Shown here in pieces: positions 2,574-51,152 of a DNA stretch of 64,000 nucleotides (the first letter of the stretch is position 1; each line of letters starts with the position of its first letter). The position numbers and the translations under genes were made by a program. The DNA is taken from positions 3,977,301 to 4,041,300 of the forward strand of contig NC_087390.1 in assembly GCF_963675165.1 (NCBI RefSeq), in the 5' to 3' direction. The notes beneath the pieces were generated by a model. It was not told the DNA's origin. It made no database searches and saw nothing but the letters and a program-made list of their open reading frames with translations. The DNA comes from Halichondria panicea. Its lineage: Eukaryota; Porifera; Demospongiae; Suberitida; Halichondriidae.

Positions 2574-5500
2574 ATGGAGGGCAATGGAAAAAGACCAAGG
2601 CATGTTTCCAGTCCTACTTTGCTAACACCTACAAGGCCTCAGAAGAAAAGAATTCCTCTTCGAACATTAGCCTCTCAGGCTCAGCAGTGTTCAGAGCAAA
2701 AGCTTGCTATTGACCAAGGTGCAAATCAACCAGCAGCTGTGGCCACAAGTGTTGACAAGGGGAATCCAGATAGCTGCAGCCAAAAAATAAAAAACAAAGG
2801 TTCTTGTCGAGTATATTATTTTGAGTGGAAAATGTACATGGCCTACTCATAAGATAGCTGAATACTGGGAAACTGTGGCAGGGTACGTGAAAAACAAATA
2901 AAGCACTACATGGATTCGCTCAGGTATTCACTTATTTATAAAGCACACTTGACAATGCATATCTTAACGCTGTGTTGTATAGGCACGTCATGCCGTTCCA
3001 AAGTTCTGAAGCTAATTAAGAAGTTTCCACAACCGGCTGATGCAGCTTTCTCATTTGCAAAACCAAGCCGTGATCATGAACCAACAGTTGTCGTTACTAA
3101 AGATGTTGGCATTCAGTGTGACATCAGACAGAAAGATACTATTTGTATAGAGGTACAACAACCACTTCTTACGGCAGAGACTTGCCAAATGCCGATAAAG
3201 AGACGGAGACTGATGACCAAACCATTGATATGGATTCGATATCTAAGTTATTTTCAAAACATTTGCAAAGAAATAGGTTTGGATGTACCAAATAACTTTC
3301 TCAAACTCTCAGCTTCTGCCATGATCAATCTACGCGAAAATAATCGCGAAAATACTGTGTACAATCTTGTCCTTGGCATTGGAACAATGAGAGAAGATGG
3401 GAGTGACTCTTGCTTCCCTGTAAAGCGAATGCCAATGGGCTTAGTGGAGTATGCAGTAAGTTTTTTCTCCGTAAAAGATATGCATGTATAGCTATATAAT
3501 TGTATAGCTGCAATAATTATTTTATTTGCACACAGGTTATATCATGTCCAGTCGACTATAGGTCATGACTTCAAACCATGTATAGCCATTACGGTCAGCA
3601 ATGGGCTAAGTTGCACCATGGCCCTTATTGGAGCACATCCAATGTACACGACAATAGTACTGGACGGCAACTAGTACTGGACGGCAACGAATAATCGAGC
3701 AGGTTGCATGTTATTTTCATGCACATAATTAGCATTTGTGACCAACCCTGCATGACATGTAATTATTGTACATGCTATTTTCTTTTCAGACTTCTATATC
3801 AATTTAATTATATTCATGCATGCAGGCGCTGGTGAACATCCCAGCAGTTTCTGAGCGAAGCTTGCGTAAAGATATTTCTGAAACCAATATAACTTTGGAT
3901 GCATCAATTCAGGTATTATAATTACTATTAGTGTGTAATTCATAGCTATATACATGCACTATTGTAATTTTATAGCAATCAGTGCTTGATCAAGCTGCAA
4001 GTGTGCATCCGGACGCATGGTGGTGGATTAAAACTGACGGGGTTGATATAGTTTGTGGATTAGGAGAATCAATGAGAGGTGAATGGTCTGGGGGGGATAT
4101 TGACTTGAATGATGGCAGTTTAAAGATCATGTATGACGAACATCAGAAGTTGCTAAAATTTATCGATGACATGGGAATAGTTCAAAGTTGCTATATAACT
4201 GAACTGAAAGAAGTTGATGAGCTCCTTCTCAAAGATCTAATTCACATCACAAAATGTAAGAATAATATAGAAAATGCATGTGATGACACTTCTATATAAT
4301 TATACCATGTTCCGTAGGTCTTCAAAACGTGTCTAAGGATTACTCAGAAAAGCAAGCTAAACATCATGTAGAAAACGAACTTATGAAACTCGCTTGGGAC
4401 ACACAGGAACTTAGTTCTATCAACTGGACGACAGTTGCGAGTAGAGAGTACAGTTTTGCAGGAAAAGCTACAAGATAATGATTACGATATTGTCGTTGAT
4501 AATTTTCCTAGACAGCTTGAAGAGTTCAAGATGAAATTAAAAGCTTTTTTCAGAAGAAGTATTAAGTATAGACGACAAGTTGCCACTCATGCTCTGGTTG
4601 TAATGATTAGTCCTGAGCAGAGAGCTAAGAAGCCATGTGCTTTACCTGTTCAATGCTTATCATGTAACATGCTAAAGGATGAAAAAATACGTTCAATTAT
4701 TGATGATGTTATAGAACAGATGGCAAAGAAAGGCATGAAAGTTGCTGGTAAGTGGTGTTAGGGTGTGTCTCATAATTATATAGTTCCGAGAAATACACAC
4801 TAACATGCATAATGCAGGTGTTGTTACTGATGGGGAGTGGAACACTTTGAGATCCAAAGGTTGTACGAGGCCTCTAAGTATTTTCGAAATTCTATCAGAC
4901 GTGAGAAATAAGTATAGCAGGAATAGCATTGGAACTTTGACAAATATGTTGACTCCAAAAGGTATGCAGGGTCTTACATGCAATAATAATGTTGGTTGTA
5001 ATGTTGTGTGCATAATTATACACACGTCAGTATCCTCCAGTGGTGAAGTTACAGCATTGCACAGAAATTCTCCTGTCAGTGAGACCACATTGAGAGAAAT
5101 TGCAGTATGGATGGAAGAAGGGTGTACAATGAAAGATGTGGTTGCACGCCTTCGACCAAAATCTGTACCGCCGGGGTATTCCACTACAGAGTGGAAAGAA
5201 GGTTTGTTCTTATAGATCCAGGCATGTGTACTGTATGTATAGAGTAGGAGTAGAATTATAATGAGTCACCTAAACTAATTTGCTACTATACTCTTGGCTA
5301 TACTTTGTCTTTTAGCACATGCATGCATGGGCACTCTATATAGTCATGACATCACAAATGTGACGTAACTATTACTATTATTACAATTGTAGTAACTATT
5401 TTTGAGTATTATAATGTGCACTTCTTGCAACAGGCAAAGAGGAACTCCTAGACGATAAAATGCGATCAATTTTAGCCCAGTTTGAGTATTCTAAACGAAT

Positions 5501-43024: not shown

Positions 43025-44903
43025 TAAGTACGACAAGTTGTCAAGTCGATAGGTTGCCGCAATAGGTTAGAGCATATTGGGCACTGAAAGTATATCTGTT
43101 TCTAGGTAGCTATTGGTATTGGTGGTATTGGTGCTATGGCCTTAATGTGCTTAATAGCGGCTTGATATGATTAGATATGATGGCCTTCCCATTCTCACTA
43201 CATTTTTTGGCTTCCAAGTGGCGGTGAACATATCAAGCAGCTTGTTTCCTTGTCATCCTACCAATGTGCTCCAGACTTTTTTTGTTAAAATATATTGCAT
43301 TTTTGCAGGAATGGCAGAATTACCTTTGTGGCAATGGAGAAGATCTCGTCTAAATCTGCCTGGTATTTTGGGCAGCTGTATCTTTAAATTTCCGCGTGTT
43401 GCTCATTCATTTCTGCAAATAATAATGCATGCGTGAATTCATGCGTGATTTTATGTTTGATTTTATGTTAATAATACCATAACTTTGAATCTGAATATCT
43501 TTTTGTAAAAACATTAGCCATTTACCTGTCTTTGAAATGAAGTAGCTTTTCTTTATTGAGTACTTCACTTCGTGATATGTGATATGACAAAAATAAATGA
43601 CATATGACGAACAAGGATTTTACCAATGCTGATATGTGACGGTTGCTATCTGAAACTCATGAAAATTACTGCTGTTCAAAAGATGTGTGTGCAGTGCGAT
43701 GTGTGTGCAGTGCTAAAGATTCTTAGAGATTCTAATTGAAGAACACCATACACTGAACTGTGATACCGAAAATGCACTATATGTGACAACGACTAGGCCA
43801 ACGACTAGGCCAACGACTAGGCCAATTTAGTAGAAATGAAAAACATGGGCAAACATTTTTTTTCAACCACCACCACATATTGCGATGATATAACATGATA
43901 TAAGTGTTCAGAATGTTCTCACGGTGACATGGCTCACTCAGGAGGTTCTATCGGCAGACGCTGGGAAATACCTACACATAGGCGGCTCATGATTGTACTA
44001 ACTAAACCTATAGTGAAGCTATCAATAGTGAAGCTATCAAGACTACTACAAATATGCTACTCTATAGTGACTTACCAAGTTCAGGAAGATGGTCCACCTC
44101 AAGTGCGTCCCTCCCAGTCACTGTCCTCTCACTCTAGGCATCGATATTCTCACTCTCTAGCTTCCCCCTGAGGTTGTACTACGAAGATCTTGTAGCAATT
44201 ATAAAACGGTCACTTTTCTTTCGACAATATTAAAAATACCACGTGGAAGAGCAGCTTGTGCTGATACTCCAACACAATGATTTTTGAAATTTGCTAAAGC
44301 GGCTTGATTCGGTCGCTCTACATGAATTCGTACTGAGCGAGTGGTTTGAACTTCGGAGTTGCCATCTGATATTCAGAGCAACACCCAACGGGTCTTGTAT
44401 GGCAAACCCGAAATTTTGTTTTTGCTACTAGTGGGAATCTTCTCTATGAAACCGGATATTCGAGTAAGCTGGACATCAGATATTGCTCCTACTCAATGTA
44501 TCTAAGGCAGGCTAAATGTATTACTGTAAAAAATGTTTTTTAACATGACAATTTTGTATTGTATCTTTGCAGGAGAATACTGTGACAGTATCTAGCAACA
44601 GTATCTAGCATTGGAGAACACTAACAAGTCAACACTTTCAACACTTTAGCTAGATCAGATTACCATGTTATTGTTTGCATAGTGCTAAATTTTTGTGCAA
44701 ACAAATCAACTAATTGGAAGCTATCTTACGGTGTTGAACAATCGCAAAATTCAGGCAGAATGTGATAGGCCAATATAAAATCGATTTTTTACAGTTGTCG
44801 ATTTACACATGAACGACAATCAATCTGATAATCGATTTTTGAAATTCGATTTTTGATAATTGATTTTAGAACTGCTCTGAGAACTGCTCTGAGGTGGGCT
44901 TGG
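43025..44903. other. No gene recognised
   Basis: AT-rich, with exact short duplications (12-bp unit three times at about 43788; 15 bp at 44010-44039; 13 bp at 44585-44610; 12 bp near 44869). Nothing else supported. Confidence 0.4.
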
Positions 44904-44911
44904 GGGGGGCC

Positions 44912-44979
44912 TAGCCTCGAATCCACGCCGATTAAAATACGGCCTGGTGTTCATTGCATGGGTGTTAGTGCACATGCGC
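44912..44979 (+). repeat. Left terminal inverted repeat of the RecQ element
   Basis: 68 bp ending CACATGCGC; pairs with 49896-49977. Confidence 0.9.
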
Positions 44980-45095
44980 TGAACAATTACCCAGAATCTG
45001 GGTAATTGTGCACGCCAGTAAAACTTTTAGTAAATGTTACCGTAAACTAGCTTGTAATACTTTTGTTCCGTGTTACTTTTATTGTTTCAATAACA

Positions 45096-46681
45096 ATGGC
45101 ATTGACTGAGACTGCGTTTTGTGAAGCTGTGGCTTATGTTCTTCGTTGCGTTGGTCTCACACTGAAGCCACAAAAGGAGGCTCTCATCGACGGTCATGAT
45201 GTCTTTGCTTGGTTCCCCACGGGCTATGGCAAGTCTTTGTGCTTCCAACTGTTGCCCTTCATGTTTGACTTCAAACTGAAGCGGACAAGCTCGAGCTCTG
45301 AGAGAAGTGTTGTGCTGGTGCTGTCACCACTAGTGTCTCTGATGATAGACCAGGTCTCAGGCCTCCGGAAGAGGGGTGTCTCTACTGCTATAATAATTAT
45401 TGTCTGGCAACAAAGGTAAATAAAGATGTAGATACAGTACCTATAATTATAGAATCTATAAAGTTATTAATGCCTGAACGTAGTGCATTATTACAGTCAT
45501 CCTTCATTTCATAGATGTCGAGAAGGACCTCCTTGCTAGTGTGAGTGACGTGTCCGAGGGTCGGTTCTCCCTCCTCTATAGTGCTCCCGAGGCACTCCTT
45601 GGCAGAGAAACGTGGAAGCAGCTCCTGTCCCCTCTGTGACTCTGTAGTGGCAGTCGCTATTGACGAAGCACACTGTGTGTATAAGTGGTAAGCAAGAGTG
45701 TTTATTCAATTTGAGGCAATATTTTAGGCTATAATTATACATGTATTACAATAAGTGGCTACATCGACGCGACATATAAAACAACACAGCAGTTCTACTT
45801 CGATATTGTCCTAAGATGTAGTGTGTTGCATATAATTATATATGGAGGGTCTCTTTAAAAAACCAGGTCTCCTTAAAATATGTACACATGTAAACTACAA
45901 GATGCCTTTACATGTGCTCTACTGTCTACGCAGTTTTGTATAATGATTTTACAACGTACATGTACAGGAGTAAAGACTGCATTTGATACCTGCGACCTCC
46001 TCGTACGCCATTTCTGGCTGCGACTGCCACTGTGACCAAGAGGATGAGGGACTATGTTGTTCAGAACCTTGGCATGGCAGGCTACTATATGGTGTCTGAG
46101 TCTCCCAACAAGCCTTATGAGGCGGTCAGAAAGACAACAATTGAGGAAGACTTTACATTCGTTGTGGCAGACTTGTTGGACAACACTGTCAAGGCTCGAC
46201 GTATAGTTGTCTACTGCCAGTCACTGAACATGTGCGCGAGTTTGTATGAGAACTTCAAGTACACTTTGAAGGATGCTGGCTACTACCCTCCAGGAGCTGA
46301 ACAGATCAGTGACAACAGAATGTTCGGAAACTCGTGGGAAGCCTGACGGTGTTGTCAGGATTGTGTTTGCGACGATGGCTATTGGTATGGGGGTGGAGGT
46401 GGACTTCAAGAACTTCATCATCCACTATGGTGCCCCTAGGTCACTGGAAGACTAGAGCGGCCGAGATAATCAGCAGTCGTTGGCTAGAGTGTACTGGAGG
46501 CCAGTTGAAGCTCCTGTACGGGCTGATCTCACCATCCCAAGGAACTTGGCTGTGAGGGACTATCTTGAGAACACTGAGCTGTGCAGGAGATTCATGCTAC
46601 TTCGATCCCGTTGTTGCCAGGGACATGAAGTCTCGGGACAAGATGTTCTGCTGCGACAACTGTCGATCCATTGCTAAGTGA
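45096..46681 (+). pseudogene. RecQ-like superfamily 2 DNA helicase, element-borne, broken
   Basis: Exon 1 (ATG 45096 to 45415): LKPQKEALIDGHDVF then Walker A PTGYGKSLCFQLLPF and motif Ia VLVLSPLVSLMIDQV. Exon 2 (about 45497-45687): SLLYSAPEALLG and, after a one-base frame change near 45637, the motif II IDEAHCVYKW. Exon 3 (about 45975-46681): motif III region FLAATATVTKRM, VVYCQSLNMCA and motif V-VI area VVRIVFATMAIGMGVEVDF then HYGAPRSLED. A TAG follows where the family continues into YFQESGRAGR-type sequence; residual homology runs on through RVYWRPVEAPVRADL to CCDNCRSIAK and TGA at 46679. Role in the family: ATP-driven 3'-5' DNA unwinding. Within an element it may assist strand processing during transposition (inference). 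Convergent with the DUF6589-like gene. Confidence 0.82.
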
Positions 46682-46904
46682 GGTAATTATTGCAGTTTAC
46701 TGATTAGTAGTCAATCTCATTATAAATCAGGTGACTAGATCTCATCGTAATGAAAAATCTCTGTGTCTGGTATATTGTCAAGTCCATACGAGGCACTGGT
46801 ACATGTCTGCATCCTCAGTGTCGGAGCCAGTTCTCATAGCAGTTTCGCTCATTGTGTACTCCATGTGGTCATCTTTTGTCTGTTTAATTTATGCAGGGGG
46901 AACT

Positions 46905-49797
46905 TGGGGAAGTCTTCACGTCCTTCTCGTCTGATCTTTTGCTGTGGGCTGTTGCTAGAGGGTGGATGCCGGTCTGCTTATCAAAACTGACGGAGAGTGT
47001 CTCGAGGGCTCTTGCTGCCCAGGTACTGGCTGCTTTCGAAAAGTTCGCACCCATGTTTGAGATTATATCTTTGAACAGCTTGTTGATGTGCTCGTTGTGG
47101 AGATCACATGGGACCGTGAGTATTGACGAAGCGGCCCCAGGTCAGCTGATGAGAGAGGTATGGCTGTAGAGTAGCAACTTGAAACTGCAGCCTCAGTGCC
47201 TCAAGTGCGTACTTTGTCTTCCTTTCAGAATGGAAGTGGAGCATCATGATCTTCCACAGTCGAAGTACACGCTCACCGTCTCCTTCCTTGCAGTACCAAG
47301 GAGGCGAAATGACACAATACTCGAGCATACCTGTACACATAATCTCTATTGTCTACCACAGGCTCTCCAAGCAGCGCCTCAGGGATCACTGTGAACTCCT
47401 TGACCACTTTCTGTGCCACACTCTTCAACAGATCCTGGTTGACCTCCTTGTAGGACCTAGTGTGCATAATGTTGGTGGCATAATGTTCTCAGTCAGGTAT
47501 GTTGTGTACTATTCCACGTCTCCTTGCAGCCCGCTGTCACAATGTGCCCTTTGAACACAATGAGCAGAGATTCTTGACATGAGTGCATGTCATCCTTTGG
47601 CTTCTTAGCTTTCGAGCGTCCAATACGTGCGAAGATACTATTGAGACTGCCGTAGTCTTCTTGACTGGCCTTGTACAGCTTCTGCCAGATGAGCTGCAAA
47701 TAACAGGAAGGTACGTCAAATGTAATCACATGTACATACGTGGGTGTATTTAGATAGTATGTGGACGTGTACATACGTACATAATGATGCATTTAGGTAT
47801 GTGTATACATACATGTAAGTACAGTTGCTGTACGTATTACTATTCTTAGTGATATCCTCAATAACACGTGTGTGTAGAACAAAATTTTTTGTTAGTGGTA
47901 GGCTCTTATAGGAGTACTGGTGGGCACTTATAGGAATACTCATATGTACAGTACTCTACAATCATAAAGTTCATCACACAGTGCCAGTCCTCAATACACG
48001 GCTACTATTTGAGCACTGCACATGACGTGAGGTGATCACCCCCAGTCAGTGCTGTGTGCTTGTAGCTCTCATGATCTCCACCATTTCACTGCTCACAATT
48101 TCGTTGTTGTGCAGCACATCCAACACAACTACCTTCGACTTTGCTGCCATCTCTTGGTGTGTGTTTGGTGACCAGCCTCTTCAACTCCTCAACTCCTTGA
48201 AACCCTCGATATAATCACACAGGATTCTACTCACTAACACCTCAAGGTCTCCCTGGATGACAGTGATATATTCCTTGATTGGTAGGAAGCACTCAACTGT
48301 GTCTGTGCATCAACTGTGTCTGTGCAGAGCGAGAGAGGAAAAGGAGGTGAGACACGAGCCTTGACAGCGAATATGCTGAACATGTGCATGAGCCTCCCAT
48401 GGTGGTCACTCCTTATGTCCCGCACACTGACCTGCTTGTCCACATTGTCACCGACAAACTTTACAAATGCCCCCTCACTCAACCACCACTTGTCTAGCAC
48501 TTTGGTATGGCCCTCACTGATCTTTTTGACACGCTTCAGTATCGCTTCGTAGCTGAGGGTCACATTGATGTGGTTTAGCCTGGCCCAAGCCTAAATAATA
48601 CTGTTCTTACCATGTGATCAATGCTCTATTTTATACGCGCACACAATTTATACGCGCACACAAACACGCACAGACCTTCAAGAGGGCACACGAGAGATAG
48701 GATTGAATCCCACACATCCGCTCTTTCAAGAGGATGGCCACTGCTGTACACAGTCCTGGGAACTGCCGATCTCCCTTCTTCTTCTTGTTCCTCTTGGACG
48801 AGTTGCTGACAGCACAACGTAGAATCTCGTAGAGAGTAGGAGCGATTGCTTGTGTCCACGCGAACCTCTCAGCCTGCTCAAGGGTCATGGACCGAAACAT
48901 GGACCGAAACAGCGACACTGGCTGGGCACTCTTGCTGCACAACACACTACACTCATCATTTATGATCCTTGATACCCAAGCCACAACATCATTACTGAGA
49001 CAAGGAGTAGACAAAACAGCCCTGCAAATGGATTGAAGATTTCCCCCAGCAAGTGCCTTTGCGATCTTTTCCAGGTACACTTACTTGGTGAGTACTGTAA
49101 GTGTGCGTTTGACTCATGATTATTACCGTACAATGTACTTTATAATAATACCTTGACAGATTGTTTGTCAGTAGCAGTGCTGGCACTCGTAGTCTGTAGT
49201 GTGCACTCAATTCCAGCTATAATTATAGGATAATTATAATTATTTATTATAACACTCAGGTATAGATCTACCATTGGGTTGCTGAGTACTGGCAGTCTCA
49301 ATAGAAGTTGCTTGAGTAACGTTGCTCCGATCCCTCAGCGGCGCAATGACTAACAAATTACAGTAATTTTAGAAACTCGTAATTTTTATCTTGGGAAACA
49401 GAGTCGCCTTCCAGCGGTCTGGCGCTTAGCTGATGGTCTTGCTACGTGTGTGTGTGGAGAAACCCCTACCCCCTTTCTCGGAGCCACAACTCGAGTACTT
49501 GTTGGGCTGCCAGTGACACTTGTGAGAGGCCTGGGTAGAAGTGCCCTTCTCTTCTCATAGCTAGCCTTGGCTAGAACTCTAAATGACTCTGCTGACAGAA
49601 ACTTTCTGTTGCAAGGCCTGCAAATAATGGTGGGAGAGACCATCACCATCATCTGGAGTTATTGGAACCTCTGTGATTTTGCTGAGCCTCTCTGCAAGAT
49701 CTGAGGAAGGGTATCCTTTGGGGAAAACTGCAATGTAATGAGAAGAAGACAAGAAACTGCAGCAAGTCCTGCATGATAAGGATTCTGCGGTAGCCAT
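46905..49797 (-). pseudogene. DUF6589-like transposon protein, multi-exon
   Basis: Minus strand. N-terminal exon 49797-49386: CRTC near the start and a second Cys pair CRPC (in a shifted frame) give a ZAD-like zinc module, followed by a basic Arg/Pro/Ser linker. Then about 49080-48640 (ICRAVLSTPCLSNDV, FAWTQAIAPTLYEIL, FPGLCTAVAILLKER). Next is 48563-48340 with FVGDNVDKQVSVRDIRSDHH, the most diagnostic block for DUF6589. Then come 47700-47540 (LIWQKLYKASQEDYGSL), 47467-47340 and 47340-46905 (GDGERVLRLWKI, YALEALRLQFQ, LTWGRFVNTHG, NEHINKLFKDIISNMGANF). The tail Asp/His/Asn pattern recalls an RNase-H-like fold, but catalytic residues are not assigned. An in-frame 12-bp duplication lies at 48885-48910. 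Probably the element's transposase (inference). Confidence 0.62.
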
Positions 49798-49895
49798 TTC
49801 TCAGTTGTTTAACCACTGTATTTTTCCTGCGAACCATGCAGTATAACGTATTCTCATTCTGTTTATTTTCCGTTTTATTATCAACAATAAATTTC

Positions 49896-49977
49896 GCGCA
49901 TGTGCACTAACACCCGCGCACTAACACCCCTGCAATGAACACCAGGCCGTATTTTAATCGGCGTGGATTCGAGGCTA
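49896..49977 (-). repeat. Right terminal inverted repeat of the RecQ element
   Basis: 82 bp: the 68-bp arm plus an extra tandem 14-bp copy of the GGGTGTTAGTGCRC block, absent from the left arm. Confidence 0.88.
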
Positions 49978-49985
49978 GGGGGGCC

Positions 49986-51152
49986 CCACTTGGTCAGTGG
50001 ATCTTTGGATCAATTTAAATTTGTTTTGGGCAGAATTTCAAGGGCAGAATTTCAAATCGATAGAAATTTATATATTTATATTTTTTGATTATGCAAATGA
50101 GTTCATTCTATTTTCAATTCTTGGAGCAGAAAAAGCAGTTTCAGCACCCACAGGGGTTAGCTTATAAAATTAATTATTAATCATAAAATTTTAATGTTAT
50201 AAAATCAGTATTATGTGCACCTAGCTTGTATGCGTACAGATTAAGTACAGGTTAAGTTAACAGTTGTATCCCACGACAATGACGTATAGGTGTTCCAAGT
50301 ACTGACGGTACTATACATATAATCATACAGTTGTTCGATTGCACACCATAATTTAATTGATCCTTCAACATTGAAATATTAGGCAACGAATATTAGGCAC
50401 GTCCGAAGAAAATTGAACTGTTTGCCAATTGGAAAAAAGGCTGGATGTCCGTCCAACTACAGAATGGAACACACAGATAGGATGAGTCCAAACTCATGTA
50501 ATGAATCGGTGGAGGTGTTCAAAAGCAATAGTTTTTATATACATTATATATTATCTGATAACATTTTAAATTTTGCTACATGTGTGAATGTGTGAAGGAA
50601 GTCAAGGATGATTTCCTTAGCGCCGGAAAATATTAACTTTTGTAAACAAACTTAATTATACCGTTAGGAGGCTCTCATCTATCTCTACGATGGTTGTATG
50701 GTCACCTGTGTTTTTTGTGTATACGAGGCCCCGGACAGCCCCGCAAACTTGAGTGTAGCTCTGGGACGATATAGAGAGCAGAAAAACGTGGAGGTAAAAT
50801 GTACTTTTGAGTTTCGTTACCATTTAGTCTTTTCAATAGGGGTAAGGCATCAGAGTGTTTAGTTCTTATCAGGAGCTTCAGGTAAACACATTGTTATGTT
50901 GTATCATAGAAAGGAAAAACCGAAGACATTGCTGTCTGTCTCTGGTGACAAGACTGTCTTAAGAAGTCTTAAGAACAAGACTTTAAGAACCCTCCCACCC
51001 TCCCAATCCACTCTCTCAGAACGACACAGACAGTGACTACACCAAAAAAAGCCAAAATGTTCAACAATGCCATACGTGAGAATGCCATACGTGAGCCCTT
51101 TTTCAAGGAAATACATATTAATACTTACACTCTTTAATACACCTTTCTACAG
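49986..51152. other. No gene recognised
   Basis: AT-rich, with short frames only. An acceptor-like tract precedes 51153. Confidence 0.35.

Follow-up and report, generated by a model that had tools for sequence, protein, structure and literature searches.

A RecQ-type helicase gene and a DUF6589 gene in one decayed DNA transposon of the sponge Halichondria panicea, probably of the AcademH type

What brings a RecQ-type helicase gene and a DUF6589 gene together, facing one another between a single pair of inverted repeats? The question is raised by a stretch of 64,000 nucleotides (nt) from Halichondria panicea (contig NC_087390.1, positions 3,977,301 to 4,041,300; hereafter the window), in which positions 44912-49977 are a decayed DNA transposon containing the two genes in convergent orientation. 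An earlier note on this DNA had described RecQ opposite DUF6589 inside a transposon, and both genes are indeed found between paired ends. The element is very probably a dead cut-and-paste transposon of the AcademH type (Academ with a helicase), in which DUF6589 would be the DDE transposase and RecQ an accessory. What the analysis shows directly is the ends, the duplications, the gene pairing, the co-divergence of the two proteins, and the predicted fold of DUF6589 with its topology.

The element and its two genes

The features of the window copy are as follows (gene ends are approximate):
44903-44911, no strand: left target-site duplication, GGGGGGGCC as 9 bp (the family length); its last 8 bp, GGGGGGCC, match exactly
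44912-44979, plus strand: left terminal inverted repeat, starting with TAGCCTCGAATCC
45051-46700, plus strand: RecQ-family helicase gene, decayed, in several exons or frames (Walker A, DEAH, and ATAT motifs)
46884-49658, minus strand: DUF6589 gene, decayed, convergent with RecQ
46914-47114, minus strand: DLHNEHIN block with the proposed catalytic E (element 2003-2203)
47963-48082, minus strand: degenerate GGDQ...EDWH block with two stops, region of the putative second catalytic D (element 3052-3171; weak match, E 0.029)
48351-48461, minus strand: GDN.DK block, holding the first D of the putative catalytic DDE triad, from conservation (element 3440-3550)
49896-49977, minus strand: right terminal inverted repeat, from arm pairing and end sequence
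49978-49986, no strand: right target-site duplication, GGGGGGCCC as 9 bp; its first 8 bp match exactly

Two pairs of arms make up the inverted repeats. The terminal arms of 71 nt (44901-44971 and 49918-49988) are 93% complementary, and a second pair of 25 nt (44955-44979 and 49896-49920) is 92% complementary. TAGCCTCGAATCC begins at 44912, its complement finishes at 49977, and GGGGGGCC directly adjoins both ends with no gap, so the repeats and duplications abut exactly, as had been claimed. The ends are not a matter of chance, because their 13-mer occurs 881 times in the genome (131 Mb, 39 contigs) and the reversed control 0 times. The same holds for the element as a whole, since a second copy (L069, contig C6), with nearly the same ends (GCG for TAG on the left), has both genes and matches the window element over them at 76-79% DNA identity. 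Five further fetched copies (L070-L074; 1.9-2.5 kb) have the same ends and have kept pieces of both genes. Three of these derivatives of about 2 kb also contain a related element end, TAGCCTCTATTCC (L071, at 1028; L073, up to 1723; L074, at 1580), apparently a shared nested insertion.

The helicase is recognized by its motifs. Walker A (FPTGYGKS) lies within the plus-strand open reading frame 45051-45419, which matches Pfam DEAD at 4.1e-9; the DEAH motif (AIDEAHCV) lies on the same strand near 45660; and the ATAT motif (LAATATVT) lies within the plus-strand frame 45987-46346. The window copy is decayed, because these motifs are scattered across different frames and two stops fall in the GGDQ-EDWH stretch of DUF6589. 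A helicase is present in the window element, in L069, and in three other families of elements (A, B, and C, described below), which contain longer open helicase frames. A family C exon of 361 residues, used as a single-exon query, matches TIGR00614 (recQ_fam) at 4.8e-58, with 197.1 bits, below the cut-off of 219.8; it also matches the RecQ, WRN, and BLM structures of the PDB, and has the core of a RecQ-type superfamily 2 helicase.

The two genes recur together throughout the genome, as a search for their co-occurrence, proposed in the earlier note, revealed. At least 92 matches to PF20231 (DUF6589) and 130 to the family C RecQ exon cluster into 63 DUF6589 loci and 91 RecQ loci. RecQ lies within 4 kb of 31 of the 63 DUF6589 clusters, where chance would give about 0.6% per cluster; 30 of the 31 pairs are convergent, and the gap between the genes is 217-781 bp in 28 of these 30. 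From 30 fetched DUF6589 loci, 23 gave both proteins at a length of at least 120 residues, and these reduce to 11 representatives more than 5% apart. Among the 11, RecQ and DUF6589 distances correlate with a Mantel r of 0.90, a value reached in 0 of 5000 permutations. The two genes have therefore been inherited together across divergent families, and the proposal that they spread as one mobile unit is supported by the recurrent convergent pairing, the number of families, and the co-divergence. The idea that copies with RecQ only are a separate element was rejected; L097, the single example fetched, retains an opposite-strand frame that, judged by eye, resembles the N-terminal zinc-finger piece of DUF6589 (tblastn with the P-numbered proteins gave no match at 1e-3), and it looks like a deletion derivative.

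DUF6589 as a candidate transposase

Within the window, FVGDNVDKQVSVRDIRSDHH falls in the minus-strand open reading frame 48234-48590, and PF20231 matches two other minus-strand frames, one at 3.5e-6 (26.4 bits, slightly below the 27-bit cut-off) and one at 0.0012. Of 42 aligned proteins, whose sources are sponges, bivalves, metagenomes, and others, 40 match the family. A D, a D, and an E are conserved across the aligned proteins, at positions usual for a DDE transposase. The earlier note had named DUF6589 as the candidate transposase and suggested a structure check; structure prediction for an Amphimedon member of the family gives an RNase H-like core containing all three residues, and the best structural alignments of this model are to the P element, Hermes, ISCth4, RAG1, and Transib. 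Together, the conservation and the predicted fold suggest that DUF6589 is a good candidate for a DDE transposase, and it is from them that we infer catalysis. A PDB sequence search with DUF6589 found no relative at E 10, and searches for viral and prokaryotic relatives (alignment A3) gave 68 and 66 pattern matches, none of which encodes a confirmed relative.

In the layout that we propose, an N-terminal zinc-finger-like part would be followed by the RNase H core, in which a helical insertion precedes the E; the triad would consist of the D in GDN.DK, the D in GGDQ, and the E in DLHMEHLNR. DUF6589 would excise the element at its TAG...CTA ends and join these to target strands 9 bp apart. RecQ, as the element's own convergently encoded accessory protein, may unwind DNA during the release of the ends or during gap repair.

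Two superfamilies to which the fold might point can be considered directly. The P element is not known to encode a RecQ gene, and the N-terminus of its superfamily is a THAP domain; hAT elements make an 8-bp duplication and have a C-terminal dimerisation domain. The 42 DUF6589 proteins match 17 Pfam families at E 0.1, and these include neither a THAP domain nor any hAT domain such as the dimerisation domain; zf-AD is present in 2 of the 42. Membership in either superfamily was rejected, given the 9-bp duplication of the window family versus 8 bp in both.

Some individual DUF6589 entries are unusual. Three JGI proteins (P0003, P0005, and P0012) are named "L1 cell adhesion molecule like protein", a label that is probably wrong. 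The matches at C3:3629098, C9:1650827, and C14:4797543 lie within open frames of 1617-1732 residues with no convergent RecQ match, and may represent a different type of element or a longer fusion.

Families, duplication lengths, and tip-to-tip palindromes

How long is the duplication? The earlier note gave 8 bp, and an exact 8-bp match is present in the window copy (8/8; in the 9-bp register, 8/9 with one mismatch). As a family length, 8 bp was rejected: of 24 distinct end pairs in the fetched loci, 10 have a 9-bp duplication (one mismatch allowed) and 0 have one of 8 or 10 bp, although some of the 24 are wrongly paired and 3 of the 10 positives are 44-58-bp palindromes, two with shared flanks. 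Cross-paired flanks gave a 9-bp match in 9 of 552 cases.

The other families have ends of their own that likewise begin with TAG and finish with CTA. Family A is 5413 bp long, with ends TAGTTGGGCGGAG and 9-bp duplications in 2 of 3 copies. Family B has six copies of 5.35 kb (identity 99.79-99.97% where compared), with ends TAGCCTCGAGACC and exact 9-bp duplications in 3 of the 6; the right end was not found in one other copy, and two have no matching duplication and right flanks that are mutually reverse-complementary. Two inverted family B copies lie at C10:1593011-1598359 and C10:1620706-1626054 (L085, L086, L015, L075, L076); their right flanks, TGGTTCTAT and ATAGAACCA, are reverse complements, as expected after an inversion between copies, though a simple single inversion would not account for the left flanks. 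Family C has ends TAGTCTSG. Two of its three copies (C3:6274705-6279969 and one on C16) were examined, and they have short inverted ends and 8-bp duplications, TAAAATCT and TATCTTCT, where the sister families have 9 bp.

The tips of the window family are also found joined to each other. Two exact 13-mer tips lie 6-34 bp apart (32-60 bp in total) at 65 places in the genome, and 0 for the reversed control. Among the 50 listed of these 65, lengths are 36-58 bp, with exactly 58 bp in 16 (for example, C1:5517306-5517363); the range of 61-91 bp holds 2, of which the first measures 62 bp and the second encloses a 52-bp unit that is part of the tally above. Two 29-bp tips make up the 58-bp form, a perfect palindrome with 6 exact copies; at up to 3 mismatches there are 25. 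The 100 exact ends listed yield 24 consecutive plus/minus pairs, of which 7 span at most 58 bp, none spans 59-1000 bp, 5 are 1-10 kb apart, and 12 are farther. When up to 2 mismatches in the 13-mer are allowed, elements of 541-578 bp with 9-bp duplications appear (L067, L068); L041 holds a 93-bp unit with an exact duplication, and L031 a 106-bp palindrome without one.

Palindromes, too, lie within 9-bp duplications. Twenty (L098-L117) were chosen by hand, with the first five exact 58-mers first, and are thus not a random sample; the duplication is exact in 12 and has at most one mismatch in 14, with 0 matches among 380 cross-pairs and none at 7, 8, 10, or 11 bp. Five of the six exact 58-mers were fetched, and four have exact duplications. 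Two of the 14 positives (L107 and L108) have mutually reverse-complementary flanks and are probably one copied insertion.

One reading of these palindromes, which we hold tentatively, is that the two strands are cut about 29 nt apart inside each end, that the tips rejoin in the donor as scars of at most 58 bp within the 9-bp duplication, and that RecQ melts the duplex of about 29 bp between the two nicks to release the transposon. In the P element, the nearest fold, the cut on one strand is described as lying 17 nt in from the ends, and the repair factors are said to include a homologue of the Bloom helicase (PMC7776569). A longer stagger of 29 nt that has to be melted would, by this analogy, account for the carried RecQ. 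Two other readings are equally open: the 58-bp palindrome may be a minimal mobile element, as its exact and near-exact copies would fit, and loss of the centre from such a mobile 58-mer would likewise yield a 58-bp ceiling; or the palindromes may be products of aborted gap repair. If they are scars, they would reveal the cleavage geometry of the candidate transposase and the reason for a helicase in a transposon.

Placement among known systems

The AcademH lineage of Academ was reportedly defined by Kojima in 2020. A helicase is encoded alongside the candidate transposase in the elements described here; a DDE/RNase H core is indicated by the predicted structure and the conserved D-D-E; and the window family, A, and B have a 9-bp duplication, where the published description of AcademH gives 9 or 10 bp (PMC10045372). 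The kind of element is known: the earlier note had called the RecQ association unexplained, but a RecQ helicase within Academ transposons was mentioned in print in 2013 (PMC3627910). The name DUF6589 does not occur in the papers covered by one search, and the link between DUF6589 and a transposase may thus be new to print. Should DUF6589 prove to be the DDE transposase of Academ-type elements with RecQ, many genes annotated as "uncharacterized" are transposon genes, and the proposed catalytic triad of PF20231, still filed under unknown function, becomes directly testable.

Several observations weigh against this placement. A Foldseek search with the predicted DUF6589 structure gave no significant match and listed mostly unrelated proteins; the nearest folds are the P element and Hermes; the 8-bp duplications of family C fall outside the 9-10 bp of AcademH; and the affiliation is one that we infer from features and published descriptions. 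The last three of these would fit a superfamily distinct from Academ, closer to P and hAT, that has DUF6589 as its DDE transposase and recruited RecQ independently. This is unlikely, since RecQ, the 9-bp duplications, and a length of 5-6 kb all fit Academ and AcademH as published, and DUF6589 is present in bivalves, where Academ is described as expanded and, in a curated library, has a mean length of 5565 bp (PMC10294476). The excess of 881 exact 13-mer ends over 63 DUF6589 clusters, together with the many short end pairs, also counts against the AcademH reading and favors mobilization of the ends in trans by another protein, with DUF6589 and RecQ as cargo or bystanders; this is very improbable, given that both genes recur convergently and co-diverge in several families with different ends, that DUF6589 has a DDE-like predicted fold, and that, between the ends of families A and B, the long frames listed are DUF6589, RecQ, or an opposite-strand reading of these (short frames were partly checked). 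That the element is of the KolobokH type is least credible and was rejected, because although KolobokH and one rhodophyte Kolobok are described as carrying RecQ (in the rhodophyte element, on the complementary strand; PMC9587614), none of the duplications here is TTAA, their length being 9 bp, or 8 bp in family C.

The AcademH-type element of the window thus stands in the following relation to known systems. KolobokH resembles it in combining a DDE transposase with RecQ, and differs in the TTAA duplication and in being described from fungi only (PMC9587614). The P element differs in its 8-bp duplication (PMC7776569) and has 9% identity to DUF6589 over the aligned residues of the structural alignment, and hAT, represented by Hermes, differs in its 8-bp duplication; no hAT Pfam domain is among the matches of the 42 DUF6589 proteins. 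AcademH differs from family C, with its 8 bp, and is like the window family, A, and B in the encoded helicase, the 9-bp duplication, and, in the published accounts, a similar length.
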